A DNA stretch of 64,000 bases from contig CANQDQ010000001.1 of assembly GCA_947593515.1 (NCBI GenBank), positions 124,001-188,000 of the forward strand, in the 5' to 3' direction. The position numbers and the translations under genes are program-made. The notes beneath the pieces are model-generated. The model was not told the DNA's origin. It saw only the letters and a list, made by a program, of their open reading frames with translations, and searched no databases. This document shows positions 5,556 to 37,241 of the stretch, in pieces. Position 1 is the first letter of the stretch; every line of letters begins with the position of its first letter. Source of the DNA: an uncultured Bacteroidales bacterium. GTDB taxonomy: Bacteria > Bacteroidota > Bacteroidia > Bacteroidales > UBA11471.

Positions 5556-5697
5556 TTTCTTGTTCCCGCGCTTCGGCGCACCCATAGGCGGCACGCCGAA
5601 TATGCGACGCGCCGGCGGCAGAAAAAAGATTCTCAGGCTGTCTCCCGCCCCGCAGCCCGAAAAAAAAGACAACACTAATCACAACCTATCATCACAC

Positions 5698-8600
5698 ATG
5701 GTTACACCCGCCTTCAAAAGCTATTTGATCGGAGCCTTGCTCATAGGAGCGCTTATGGGCAGCGGCACGACGGCTTCGGCAGCCGGCAGAGGTACGAGCC
5801 AACAACCGGAAACCACAACGGAAACGCCATTCATTACCGGCGTCGTGGTCGATAAGAGTTCGGGCGAAACACTGCCCGGCGTTACCATATCGGCATGGCA
5901 AAGCGGCAAATTGATTTACAGCACATTTTCTTCGGAAGATGGAACATTCCGCCTCCGTCGGCCGAACGGGAAGTTCGAATTGCGCATTTCGACCATCGGC
6001 TATCGCCACGAAACGATAGAGCCGACATCGGAAAATAATCTGACTATCAAACTCGAAAACGAAGCCACCACGATGAAAGAGGTGGTGGTAACGGGTTTCT
6101 TCAACAAAAGCAAAGAGAGTTTTACGGGTTCGGTACAGCAGGTTTCGGGCACTGAGCTGAAACAAATATCGAACACGAACATCTTTACGGCGCTGTCGGC
6201 ACTGACGCCGGGTATGGAAATGGTGCAAAACAACCGCATGGGCTCCAACCCCAACCAAGTGCCGGAACTGATTATTCGCGGTACCAGCTCGTTTTCCAAC
6301 GAAGAACAGGACGTGAACCAGCCGACCATCATACTCGACGGTACGGAAATATCCATGCAGGAGCTTTACGACCTCGACATGAATGAAATAGAGTCGATAA
6401 ACGTGTTGAAAGACGCATCGGCATCGGCACTGTACGGCAGCAAGGCAGCCAACGGCGTGATCGTCATCACGCGCAAACAGCTGCGCGAATCGACCATACG
6501 GGTGTCGTACAGCTTCACGGGAAATGTGCAGTTTCCTTATCTGAAAGATTACCAACTGCTCAACGCCGCCGACAAATTGGAGTACGAGCGTCTCGCGGGC
6601 CTCTACACCGACACCGAAAACACGATAGACCAGACGACGGGTCTCCCCTACCAATATACGCTCGACAGCCTCTACAACGCCCGCTTCCAACAGATACGGA
6701 GGGGACAGAACTCGGACTGGCTGCGGCAGCCGGCACGCACTGCCGTGTCGAACGACCACTCGCTGCGCGTGTACGGCGGTATGTCGAACGTGCGCTACGA
6801 ACTCAACGCCCGCTACGGCAACACCGAAGGCGTGATGCGGGACGACTACCGCCGCCGCTACGGTCTGGGCTTCAAACTCGACTATTTCATCAACAACAAG
6901 ATACAAATCTCGAACCGCACCAGCTACTCCGAAGTGTCGGTGAAAAACTCGCCCTACGGCAGCTTCACCCTCTACACGCAGATGAACCCCTACGACCGCA
7001 TGTATAACGACGACGGCTCGGCAAACACCGACCTCGCATGGGACCTCATCAACCCGCTGTATGAAGCGCAGTTAGGCAACTACGACAAAAGCGGCACGCG
7101 GTCGATAACGAACTCGACCGATTTCCGGTGGGACATTACGCGGGATTTACGATTGACGGGACTGTTCAACATCACCTCGAACATGGGGTGGAGCGAAGTG
7201 TTCGTTTCGCCGCTGTCGCGGACGTTCCGCAACGAAACCGACCTGACGAAGAAGGGTTCGCGCGACCAGTCGTCGTCGCGGGGCACCGGCTACAACGGGC
7301 AAATCGTCGGATCGTACAACCACATCATGAAAGACCAGTCGCTGATTTCACTCACCGCCGGCTGGGAAATCAGCCGGAGCAACAGCAAAACCGAGCGCAC
7401 GCAAGCCATCGGCTTTTTCAACGACGCATTCTCGGCATTAGGCAACGCCGCCGGCTATCCGGCAAGCGGACGCCCCTACGGCTCTTTGTCGGAAGCTGCC
7501 GATGTGGGAGCCTTCATCACGGGCAGCTACTCTTTCCGCAACCGCTATTTCGTGGAATCGACCTACCGGCTGTCGGGTTCGTCAGTCTTCGGCGAAAACA
7601 ACCGGTGGGGACACTTCTGGTCGGCAGGTGCAGGCTGGAATATCCATAACGAAAATTTCATGAAGTATTTCGACCACATCGACCTGATGAAAATACGCGG
7701 CAGCGTGGGCTATACGGGCAAGGTGAATTTCAGCGCATTCCAAGCCATGACCATGTACGAATACGAAAACACGTATGAATATCTGTACGGCATCGGCGCC
7801 GTGCCCCGCACCATCGGCAACCCCGACCTGTCGTGGGAACGCACGATGACCTACAACGTGGGTGTGGACTTGAGCCTGTTCGACCACCGGCTGAACTTCG
7901 TTGCCGACTTCTATGAAAAAGATACGAAAGACCTGCTGCTCGACCGCTCCCTGCCGCCGTCGGTGGGCGTAACCAGCGCCATCGACAACTTGGGAGAAAT
8001 GCAGAATCGCGGCTTTGAATTTCAGATAGACGGCTACATATTCCGCACGTCGATTTTCAACTGGAAACTCGGCGCATCGGGCTACATGAACCGCAACAAA
8101 ATAACGAAGATAAACCGCGCCCTCGAAGAGATAAACCGCGAGAATCTGGAAAATATGCAGTATCAGGTATATCAATACGAACCGCTCGTGCAGTATGTGG
8201 AGGGCGACCCCGTGTCGTCGCTGCGGCTGGTACGCTCCGCCGGCATCGACCCCGCCACCGGTCAAGAGATATACATTACCAAAAACGGCGCCCTGACATT
8301 CACCTACAATGAAAGCGACCGCGTGCTGATAGGCGACACCGAACCGAAATTCACCGGTACCATCAACACGTCGTTCTACTACAAGGGCATCAGTCTCTAC
8401 GCCATGTTCAATCTGCGGTGCGGCGGCTGGATATACAACACCACCCGCGTGTCGAAAGTGGAGGGCAACAATCCGAAACAAAACGCCGACCAACGAGTAT
8501 TCGACAGCCGCTGGCGGCAACCGGGCGACGTAGCCATATACAAAGACATCGCCGACCAGTCGTCGCCGCGCCAGACCGACCGCTTCGCCGAAAAAGAAAA

Positions 8601-34837: not shown

Positions 34838-36022
34838 CTACAATTTTTCCGGAGATATTTCCACGAAAGCGCAGTAATGCGTGTCGGCATATACGGGTGA
34901 AAGCGACACGTATCCGCTTTCGATTCTGCTGCCGGCAATACGCAGCGGAGCTGCCGCCAACCGTGCGGCATGATGCACCGCAAGCTGCCGGCTGTCGGCA
35001 AAATATTCCACCCGATAAATGCCTTCGCGTCCCGCCGCCACGTAACGGTCGTAAAAAAGACGCGCTGCCATTCCCATGTTCATGCGCAGATTGAGTTCGA
35101 CACACGGGTGCAATGCATAGCCGTGCACCGTGTCGTATATCAACATATCGACGCCGAAGCTGCCGATATACAACGGAGCTATACGGTCGGTAAAACAGGT
35201 TGCCAACGCCTGCCGCACCCGATGCAGGGTTTCCTGCCCGACATAAGCCGACAAGCGTTTTTCGATAACGGCATCTGCCGCCAGCAGGTTTCCTTTGTAG
35301 GCGCCTCTGCCGTCGGTCTCGAAAAAAGAGTAGCCCGCAAAATCGACCCGCTGCCCGTCGGAACGAAATTCCATAGCAAAATCGGCAACTTTCGGGAAAC
35401 AGGCTTCTCCGATGACCATGCCCTGCCGATGCAGCACGCCCTGCGCCCAGCGGCGGGACGGCAGGTCGTAATCGCCGTGCGTCCAGCACAAACCTTTTCC
35501 GCTGCCCGACCACGGAGCTTTGAGCACCGCCCGCTCGTGCCGCCTGACAAAGCGCTGCACCGCCGCTTCGTCGGCAAGAGGCTCGGGCAGCTCGTCGGGC
35601 ACGACAACACCGTGTTCCGAAAGATAGAGCAGCACATCGCGCGTATGCAGGCGATGCGCCGCCTCGCGCAAGCGGGCAAGCCGAGCGGCATCGGGCAACA
35701 GAGCGGCAGGAACGCCTGCCCGCTCCAAGCGAGCAGCGACTTCGTGGCTCCACCCCCAAACAGAACAGGCGGTTATCGGGTGCGGAAAGGCTCCCATGAC
35801 CGTCGGTCGACCGGCAATGCCCAATGCCGAGAAAGCCGGCTGCAACGGTTCGGCAAAATCGAGCGTCGGCAGCCATACCGCCGCATCGGGCGCATCATAC
35901 CAGAAAGGCAGCGTGGAGAGGTCGTGCGCAATGGCGCGCGCCAAAGGCGGAGGCGTGTAGCTTTTGCCTCCGTGCGCCAGCGCCAAATCGTTTTCGGGAT
36001 TGAAAAGCGCGAGCAGCGACAT
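34838..36022 (-). CDS. ATP-grasp-like protein of unknown function
   Basis: A 394-residue protein that I recognise only as a conserved Bacteroidota hypothetical. The start FNPENDLALAHGGKSYTPP is the family's signature. Residues 166-178 (VLKAPWSGSGKGL) look like the ATP-grasp Lys and glycine-rich loop. D292 with E309-L-N-L-R313 resembles the metal-binding and Arg residues at the end of an ATP-grasp fold. ATP-grasp enzymes join a carboxylate to an amine or thiol through an acyl phosphate. The start codon overlaps the stop of the upstream duplicated-domain gene (TAATG), so the two are translated together. Substrate unknown; the fold call is by motif only. Confidence 0.68.
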   Translation of the reverse strand: MSLLALFNPENDLALAHGGKSYTPPPLARAIAHDLSTLPFWYDAPDAAVWLPTLDFAEPLQPAFSALGIAGRPTVMGAFPHPITACSVWGWSHEVAARLERAGVPAALLPDAARLARLREAAHRLHTRDVLLYLSEHGVVVPDELPEPLADEAAVQRFVRRHERAVLKAPWSGSGKGLCWTHGDYDLPSRRWAQGVLHRQGMVIGEACFPKVADFAMEFRSDGQRVDFAGYSFFETDGRGAYKGNLLAADAVIEKRLSAYVGQETLHRVRQALATCFTDRIAPLYIGSFGVDMLIYDTVHGYALHPCVELNLRMNMGMAARLFYDRYVAAGREGIYRVEYFADSRQLAVHHAARLAAAPLRIAGSRIESGYVSLSPVYADTHYCAFVEISPEKL

Positions 36023-36849
36023 TATTGACGTTCGTTATCGAGAGCCGCCAGCTCGTTCCAGAAAGAAGAAGGCAGTGCAATGTTTTCGACATCGACCGCC
36101 GCAGCAAACAGCGGCGCCACCTCTTTGTCGGTGAAGCCCGCAATGCCGCACCCGATACGGGTTACAAGGAAACGGTATTCCCCGTGTTCACGGGCAAAGG
36201 CGATAAATTCATCGACATAGGGGCGTATCATTTCGACATTGGCGCGCATGGTAGGTATGGCATACGAGCGACCGGTAAGTCCGTTGCCCACGCCCCACTC
36301 CGCGCCGAAACGCTCGCAAGCGATGCGGGCGGCTCCGCCGTAATGTTTTCCGGCAAGGTTGCTGCCAAACACGAAAATTTCATTTTCGCCCAATGTGCGG
36401 ATATTGTCGGGCGCGATGCGGCGCGCCGGAATACGGGGCGGATAGAGTTTGCGCTGCAAGAGCACCCGCCAGAAAGAGAGCGGCAGGGTAACATTTTCCA
36501 TATCGGCAGCAGCAGCGAAAAGAGGAGCGATTTCTTCGTCGGTGAAACCGGCGACACCGCACCCGACACGGGTTACCAAGAATCGTATCTCGGGGTGATT
36601 CCGTGCGAAAGTTATAAAAATATCGACATGCGGCGCTATCATCTCCACACCGGCACGCACCACCGGTATGGCGTAAGTCTGCCCCTTTACCCCTTCGGCA
36701 AGACCACCTCCCCCAAACGATTCATAAGCCATACGTGCAGCTTTTCCGTAATGTTTTCCGATGCGATTGCTGCCGAATACGAAAATTTCGTCCGGCTCCA
36801 ACCGTTCAATCTGTTCGGGAGTGATTCTGTTCTGAGGTATTGTTTCCAT
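36022..36849 (-). CDS. Tandem-duplicated macrodomain-like protein (A1S_2505-type)
   Basis: A 275-residue protein made of two copies of one domain (about residues 8-130 and 145-268). Each has the phrases EIFVFGSN, GKHYG-AAR, YAIP, VEMI-P-V, FLVTR-GCG-AGFTD and APLFAAA. By hand alignment about two thirds of positions agree. Single-domain relatives are, as I recall, named after A1S_2505, a phage non-structural protein, and are common in Bacteroidota. The GCG-AG loop and FGSN/GKH-GAA segments resemble the ADP-ribose loops of macrodomains of the Poa1/TARG1 type; that is inference. The gene is coupled to the ATP-grasp-like gene by a one-base overlap. No promoter box was found upstream. Confidence 0.7.
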   Translation of the reverse strand: METIPQNRITPEQIERLEPDEIFVFGSNRIGKHYGKAARMAYESFGGGGLAEGVKGQTYAIPVVRAGVEMIAPHVDIFITFARNHPEIRFLVTRVGCGVAGFTDEEIAPLFAAAADMENVTLPLSFWRVLLQRKLYPPRIPARRIAPDNIRTLGENEIFVFGSNLAGKHYGGAARIACERFGAEWGVGNGLTGRSYAIPTMRANVEMIRPYVDEFIAFAREHGEYRFLVTRIGCGIAGFTDKEVAPLFAAAVDVENIALPSSFWNELAALDNERQ

Positions 36850-36986
36850 AGTCGTTCTTTTCTGTCATTTCGTAAAAGGGAATCCGCATTTTCCCGTCCT
36901 GCCAAAAAGACAAATCGGAAAAGCGGAAGATATTTTTTGTTCGTGTTTCTCCCGATTTTCCGACTGTCTTTTCCGTAAAAGACTTT

Positions 36987-37241
36987 TTAAGCGTTTGCTT
37001 CTTCAAGAATCTTCATCGCCATATCGTAGATGGTCGTATTGTCGAGTACGACGATACCGCCGTCGGGACCCGGCTCGATATGCAGACCGCAATTTTTTCC
37101 GAATTCATAATTGTTTCCACCAAAATAGTTGCGAACGGTTTGAACAGTTATATTCAATTCATCGGCGATTCGGTGCATGGAGCCGTCGGGCAGGCTGTCT
37201 TTGATGCGGCGAAGTTCGTTGAAAGTAATTGTCTTTGTCAT
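36987..37241 (-). CDS. Small HTH DNA-binding protein
   Basis: An 84-residue protein. Residues 8-45 (LRRIKDSLPDGSMHRIADEL, then NITVQTVRNYFGG) form a helix-turn-helix in which ITVQTVRNYF is the likely recognition helix. The C-terminal half (HIEPGPDGGIVVLDNTTIYD) is a short beta-helix tail. It matches a conserved family of small Bacteroidota DNA-binding proteins with no known target. It stands alone, with AT-rich DNA upstream (37242-37400) but no exact promoter box. Confidence 0.8.
   Translation of the reverse strand: MTKTITFNELRRIKDSLPDGSMHRIADELNITVQTVRNYFGGNNYEFGKNCGLHIEPGPDGGIVVLDNTTIYDMAMKILEEANA

Follow-up and report, generated by a model that had tools for sequence, protein, structure and literature searches.

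A genus-specific doubling of the A1S_2505 macrodomain-like domain next to a predicted ATP-grasp ligase gene in Bacteroidales

The question raised by this locus is what can be expected of a protein that carries two copies of one domain, and whether it works together with the ATP-grasp-like protein encoded directly downstream. The analysed stretch (the window, 64,000 nucleotides) covers positions 124001-188000 of contig C1 of a 2.26 Mb genome, G000, one of the seven genomes of its genus available for comparison (G000-G006). Both genes are located on the minus strand. The doubled gene (36022-36849) encodes 275 amino acids and ends with a stop codon at 36022-36024, and the downstream gene (34838-36022) encodes 394 amino acids. 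The stop of the first and the start of the second overlap by one base in TAATG (36020-36024, minus strand). The coordinates, strands and overlap given by a sequence-only reading made before this analysis were all confirmed. The upstream neighbour of the pair is an 84-residue protein (36987-37241, minus strand), HTH-like by eye and without Pfam match, whose gene family (F1) was present in 9 of 40 loci and is kept upstream in the genus and in two outside genomes. The surroundings of the tandem gene consist of core genes, among them tsaD-like and cinA-like ORFs (assigned by eye) and a PAP2 phosphatase (Pfam). A search for structured RNA around the pair found none, and promoters and terminators at the pair were no more numerous than in shuffled sequence. 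Two long open frames run antisense to these genes, 34970-36028 (plus strand, 352 aa) and 36025-36978 (plus strand, 317 aa), and look like by-products of the opposite coding frames.

Alignment of the two halves of the 275-residue protein gave 79 identical residues out of 123 (64%) with one gap, in agreement with the two thirds estimated earlier by hand, and a local score of 409, whereas 500 shuffles reached 62 at most. The NCBIfam model NF049995 matched the protein twice (251.2 bits, cut-off 45) and also recognized the single copies (144.4 and 113.1 bits), so that both halves lie above the curated cut-off of the A1S_2505 family, named A1S_2505 family phage non-structural protein in NCBIfam and having phrog_2072 as PHROG counterpart. 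Copy 1 spans approximately residues 7-137 (36439-36831, minus strand) and copy 2 approximately residues 140-272 (36034-36432, minus strand). The domain had been described as usually single, and this holds: among 132 domain-bearing ORFs, drawn from 161 loci of which many overlap (L093 and L094 are G004 and G005 again), two-copy ORFs were confined to six genomes, all of the genus to which the window belongs, and none occurred among the 80 domain ORFs of 80 viral loci. The doubled protein differs from the rest of the family in having two copies, one of them diverged, and judged from these sequences the doubled form seems specific to one genus among the samples searched.

A domain tree of 106 rows was constructed, omitting the G004 and G005 copies, which are nearly identical to those of G000, and matches of up to 110 residues. 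The eight duplicated copies from four genomes formed one clade (99/96) and copy 1 formed one clade (100/99), which indicates a single duplication before the genus split. The earlier proposal that the duplication is recent could therefore not be maintained, as it is older than the split between lineages whose orthologous copies share only 58-82% identity. From the same sequences the tandem gene is taken to be inherited vertically within the genus. Both domain types of the pair were already known, and the doubled protein is a genus-specific variant of the known A1S_2505 family; what is new is that a single doubling preceded the divergence of the genus. Judged by titles and abstract openings, no paper found in the literature searches treats either a doubled A1S_2505 protein or this gene pair.

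The two copies have since followed different paths. Copy 2 is the canonical one, with all 32 checked conserved positions unchanged in all six genomes. In copy 1, T200 and M201 are replaced by Val and G188 by Ala, Ser or Thr in every one of the six; G172 is replaced by Lys or Asp in four, N164 by Thr or Ser in two and H169 by Tyr in one. In the window itself the equivalents of Gly172, Gly188 and Thr-Met200-201 are Lys, Ala and Val-Val. The conserved motifs that had been reported for each copy are indeed present in both copies of G000, but copy 1 has lost some of them in other members of the genus. That some genomes have lost the conserved Asn, His and Gly of copy 1, and that copy 1 evolves faster (58-73% between-lineage orthologue identity, compared with 72-82% for copy 2), would suit a copy 1 that is a decaying remnant without a role, leaving a functionally single-domain A1S_2505 protein. 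This is quite improbable in view of the low dN relative to dS of copy 1 among G000, G004 and G005 (0.003/0.099, 0.007/0.199 and 0.010/0.227 for the three pairs) and of a copy 1-specific signature, EGxKG...YAIPVV, that is kept in all six genomes. For copy 2 the same genomes gave dN of 0.011-0.018 and dS of 0.120-0.233, so that dN/dS comes to about 0.03-0.04 in copy 1 and to about 0.08-0.09 in copy 2; these figures are limited to the three closest genomes, farther pairs being near or past saturation of silent sites. With dN this low relative to dS, purifying selection acts on both copies, and the earlier suggestion that the duplication was kept by selection stands in this part. On the residue pattern, the ancestral pocket no longer appears to constrain copy 1, though this copy is selected.

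The fold of the doubled protein was predicted with AlphaFold2 on an alignment of 67 sequences (A2), resulting in a pLDDT of 89, indicative of good domains, and a pTM of 0.62, the domain arrangement not being fixed by the model. The top Foldseek match was macrodomains 1-2 of PARP14 (E 8e-7), followed by many macrodomains and by unrelated chains with weak E-values. In VIA-align the rows cover residues 139-274, so the scores speak for copy 2 and barely for copy 1. Copy 2 could be superposed on 3gpo (Z 12.0, rmsd 2.9, 128 aligned residues), on TARG1 2l8r (Z 11.5, rmsd 2.9, 123 aligned) and on DarG 5m3i (Z 11.0, rmsd 2.9, 121 aligned). Macrodomains of alphaviruses, Thermus (2dx6), TARG1, PARP14, DarG and YmdB all scored at Z 10-12, and the best 50 matches were macrodomain entries plus a few designed proteins. 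The model thus assigns a macrodomain fold to copy 2; for copy 1 the same predicted fold is derived from the tandem model and from its closeness to copy 2 (64% identical).

At the sequence level, the Pfam family Macro (PF01661) was absent among the matches of the doubled protein up to E 5, and hhalign comparison of 67 and then 189 A1S_2505 sequences with 25 canonical Bacteroidales Macro proteins gave non-significant probabilities of 0.04-0.4%. A PDB sequence search with the doubled protein returned marginal matches only (PARG, E 0.39), and with the alignment nothing relevant. Because of the missing PF01661 match and the non-significant profile comparison, the fold is claimed here and not sequence-level membership of PF01661. 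All 30 genomes with a PF01661 gene, out of 60 searched, lie outside the genus, and none of the seven genus genomes has one. Judging from these searches, the genus may have no macrodomain-type protein besides the doubled one, except in G002 (L019, 1360-2418, plus strand). The G002 protein is a second, highly divergent member of the A1S_2505 family; it extends by nearly 200 residues at the C-terminus, has an altered loop (VGCGGGCCEVW) and gave no Pfam match.

The loops of both copies had been compared to the ADP-ribose loops of Poa1/TARG1-type macrodomains. This likeness holds for the predicted macrodomain-like fold of copy 2 and for the RIGCG motif, but not for TARG1 chemistry. We take D125, which follows the RIGCG loop, and a Lys to be the catalytic residues of TARG1. 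When lined up by eye, the TARG1 stretch R119-D125 corresponds to RIGCGIA of the doubled protein, and the position of D125 is Ala in both copies in all six genomes. In an alignment of 30 family members, no invariant or near-invariant column holds Lys or Asp. The doubled protein therefore shares with TARG1 (C6orf130, OARD1) the fold (2l8r, Z 11.5) and the RIGCG loop, and differs by the Ala at the Asp125 position and by the lack of a family-conserved Lys or Asp. A TARG1-type hydrolase is not supported for these reasons, and if the A1S_2505 proteins are enzymes, they would have to work without the TARG1 dyad. The TARG1 residues R119, I120, G121, C122, G123, L124 and D125 are listed in the accessible part of PMC6978653, where a macrodomain-like fold of A1S_2505 was also proposed by I-TASSER, a role as O-acyl-ADP-ribose deacylase was suggested, and inactivation of A1S_2505 was reported to leave colistin resistance unchanged. 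A tested biochemical function of A1S_2505 proteins was not found in the literature consulted. Macrodomain activities on RNA are treated in the portion of PMC11833690 that was available. Gp145 of ICP1 was dropped as a possible relative, being described as a DarT-binding protein in the available text of PMC11481870.

The model of the partner was obtained with AlphaFold2 on alignment A1, which contains 39 of 45 reference sequences, six truncated duplicates having been dropped and the window sequence being used in place of its own locus copy; it reached a pLDDT of 94.8 and a pTM of 0.92. The best whole-chain match was the ATP-grasp protein 3wvr (Z 27.3, rmsd 3.5, 354 aligned residues), which we take to be the pheganomycin ligase PGM1. 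Further matches were the peptide ligase 8ynd (Z 26.2), BesA (Z 24.4) and SAOUHSC_02373 (Z 23.3), the last presumably the Asp-Met ligase LdmS, and purine and carboxylase ATP-grasps followed lower, at Z 16-19. The partner resembles PGM1, the Streptomyces ATP-grasp peptide ligase, BesA and SAOUHSC_02373 in fold over its whole length (Z 23-27), but is 11-16% identical to them and belongs to a Bacteroidales family of its own without matching Pfam entry. In the 39 sequences K168, S172, G175, G177, D292, E309 and N311 do not vary, and at least 90% of them have R313. K168 is presumably the ATP-binding Lys and D292, E309 and N311 presumably form the ATP-grasp metal triad. The ATP-grasp features proposed before, WSGSGKG and E309-x-N311-x-R313, are thus present and conserved, and structure prediction agreed with the suggested folds on both sides, copy 2 matching macrodomains and the partner ATP-grasp proteins.

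Profile searches added little to this assignment. No Pfam family matched the partner up to E 5. The best match in PDB was 7r8p (E 0.19, suggestive only), in whose weak alignment D292 falls on an Asp. LdmS was the sole NCBIfam match and a weak one (13.2 bits, E 0.028), and an identification as L-aspartate--L-methionine ligase LdmS was rejected, as the equivalog cut-off is 475. On the basis of the model we are confident that the partner has an ATP-grasp fold that is closest to the amino-acid/peptide ligases, and we infer amino-acid or peptide ligation from this fold and the conserved residues. The family was found in 104 of 393 genomes of the order and in 4 of 296 genomes of the phylum, three of these four being from this order as well and the fourth a marginal match (E 3e-4). 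It is an independent Bacteroidales ATP-grasp family, widespread there without a matching Pfam entry, and its fold group includes amino-acid/peptide ligases.

The gene pair had been noticed in one genome. It is adjacent in six of the seven genus genomes (G000 and G002-G006) and hence not peculiar to this one. The one-base overlap is present in five of these six, as TAATG in G000, G004 and G005 and as TGATG in G003 and G006; in G002, taking its GTG as start codon, about 44 bases separate the two. G001 has the ligase gene immediately after the HTH-like gene, and the doubled gene would not fit between them. As this genome is nested beside G003 and G006 in the tree (98/95), it has most likely lost the doubled gene. 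Two genomes from outside the genus, G391 and G171, carry an HTH-like gene, a Usp/DUF2007-type gene and the ligase gene without the doubled gene, an older neighbourhood into which the doubled gene was probably inserted.

With regard to the order, A1S_2505 members were found in 67 of the 393 sampled genomes and both families together in 49. In these 49 they lie within 2 kb of each other in five, all of the own genus, on the same contig at least 38 kb apart in four, and on different contigs in 40, and of the 104 genomes with the ligase, 99 have no A1S_2505 gene next to it. Among 64 genome loci with an A1S_2505 gene the ligase was nearby in two, both of the own genus, and it was encountered neither in the 62 loci from other genera (flanks of up to 6 kb) nor in the 80 viral loci (up to 3 kb). 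Going by these sequences, the pairing seems specific to one genus among the genomes sampled.

These data bear on the possibility that both proteins serve one pathway, in which the ATP-grasp enzyme would attach an amino acid or peptide and the doubled macrodomain-like protein would read or remove a linked ADP-ribosyl group. Such a pathway would fit the overlap kept in five of six genomes across two different stop codons, TAA and TGA, and the gene order kept in six of seven. It would also fit the co-occurrence of the two families in 49 order genomes, where 17.7 are expected (Fisher p 6e-19), an excess that is set aside because the count ignores relatedness. A precedent in print comes from the accessible part of Burroughs 2015 (PMC4431377), in which R2K ATP-grasp genes flank an ADP-ribosylglycohydrolase gene in firmicutes. 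There, as here, an ATP-grasp ligase gene stands beside an ADP-ribose-processing gene, but here the neighbour is a macrodomain-like protein instead of a glycohydrolase and the phylum is another one; the partner, which no Pfam family matches, may also belong to another ATP-grasp family than R2K, a clade marked by a second conserved lysine in the RAGNYA domain. Against one pathway stand the restriction of adjacency to the own genus (5 of 49 order genomes with both families), the empty non-genus and viral loci, the retention of the ligase in G001 after loss of the doubled gene, and families that have A1S_2505 members and no ligase, such as f81 with four genomes. The flanking genes are also syntenic across the genus, so adjacency alone is weak, and the kept overlap is a stronger sign of coupling. 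Taken together, a common pathway is unlikely. A stricter form, a translationally coupled two-enzyme unit in which the ligase would conjugate an aminoacyl or peptidyl group to an ADP-ribose-type molecule or to an ADP-ribosylated target, copy 2 would hydrolyse this conjugate and the altered pocket of copy 1 would sense the product or substrate, is very improbable; if true, it would be a writer/reader/eraser unit for an undescribed conjugate. The system for a nucleotide-linked modification that had been envisaged for the pair is possible but, beyond the kept overlap, finds no support as a general one, since the two genes stand side by side in a single genus among the genomes sampled and the ligase gene also occurs in an older setting that lacks the doubled gene.

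The reading we prefer, and consider reasonably probable, is that of a doubled A1S_2505 macrodomain-like protein and a separate predicted amino-acid ligase as coupled neighbours. In the ancestor of the genus, the doubled gene would have settled between the older HTH/Usp segment and the ligase gene, and would then have become translationally coupled to the latter. The two genes are probably co-expressed, as operon neighbours rather than members of one pathway. Copy 2 would be the working domain, most likely binding, and perhaps hydrolysing, a small ADP-ribose derivative or an ADP-ribosyl adduct by way of the GSNxxGxHxGGAA and RIGCG loops. Copy 1 would have arisen by the single duplication before the genus diverged, losing pocket residues and gaining EGxKG...YAIPVV, and its role would most likely be structural, regulatory or directed to an altered ligand. 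For the ligase, the predicted reaction is the attachment of an amino acid or peptide to an acceptor by way of an acyl-phosphate. With a conserved and an altered pocket in one chain, the doubled protein offers a natural experiment in which binding is separable from catalysis.

The distribution of the domain beyond the order raises the question of another origin for the gene. The family is common in phages: a search with copy 2 matched 446 of 50,697 records, and relatives are encoded on at least 576 viral stretches. Together with the NCBIfam name as phage non-structural protein, this could point to a phage-derived or defence ADP-ribose processor placed in a core-gene region, with copy 1 blocking or sensing and copy 2 removing host or phage ADP-ribose signals. 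This origin is improbable, given the position of the tandem gene among core genes (tsaD-like, cinA-like, PAP2 phosphatase), its vertical inheritance within the genus, the lack of the doubled form in the 80 viral loci and the lack of a DarT in the genome (no PF14487 match in G000). The locus also differs from DarTG in that the partner is an ATP-grasp protein and not an ADP-ribosyltransferase toxin.

The preferred reading of copy 2 as an ADP-ribose-related domain draws on the fusions of single-copy relatives. Fused or long A1S_2505 ORFs were scanned with Pfam in sets of 10, 4 (two repeats), 10 and 10 (one repeat). Fusions were found to ADP-ribosylglycohydrolase PF03747 (L045, L095), NUDIX (L048, L103, L130), SLOG YpsA/YAcAr (L296, L298), DUF1810 (L152) and a dual-specificity phosphatase (L238), and two plasmid matches (H41, H43) are annotated as SLOG family protein. 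DUF7666 accompanies the domain on viral contigs L255, L259, L274, L299, L300 and L301, that is, in 6 of 10 viral ORFs of one scan, with pentapeptide repeats in L259 and L299. Weak partners below the Pfam cut-off were VWA (L146, L095, L237), PAS (L111) and sigma-70 region 4 (L100, L134, L137, L147, L232), and no Pfam family was found for L005, L011, L019, L113, L118, L155 and L283. The available parts of PMC9503650 and PMC7824862 present ADP-ribosylglycohydrolase, NUDIX, Macro and SLOG as parts of an NAD/ADP-ribose network. The fusions to ADP-ribosylglycohydrolase, NUDIX, SLOG and DUF1810 thus point to ADP-ribose metabolism. They are the best functional lead, under the hypothesis that A1S_2505 proteins process ADP-ribose derivatives with a catalytic site unlike that of TARG1, a concrete and testable proposal for proteins that are common in phages and gut Bacteroidales.

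A general operon partner of single-copy A1S_2505 genes was not found, the recurrent neighbours coming mostly from one close group of loci. In L099 a single-copy A1S_2505 gene starts where a NUDIX-like ORF (5570-6010, plus strand; assigned by eye) ends, so that the link to NUDIX, fused in L048 and L103, exists both as fusion and as neighbour. In L095 (5191-7646, plus strand), and likewise in L096, two different A1S_2505 fusion genes adjoin, in L095 the ADP-ribosylglycohydrolase fusion followed by the VWA-like fusion, and in G305 (contig C8) and G367 (contig C25) two A1S_2505 genes are about 1.3 kb apart; these gene pairs may be ADP-ribose-processing clusters in Bacteroidales. The proteins with a sigma-70-region-4-like part carry A1S_2505 at the C-terminus and come from several gut Bacteroidota and one viral contig; they may be ADP-ribose-responsive transcription factors. 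Finally, the BFVD entry A0A7M1RZQ7 of the uncultured phage cr116_1 contains an A1S_2505-like domain in a giant protein described as ART-PolyVal-like, which by this description alone ties the domain to an ADP-ribosyltransferase.
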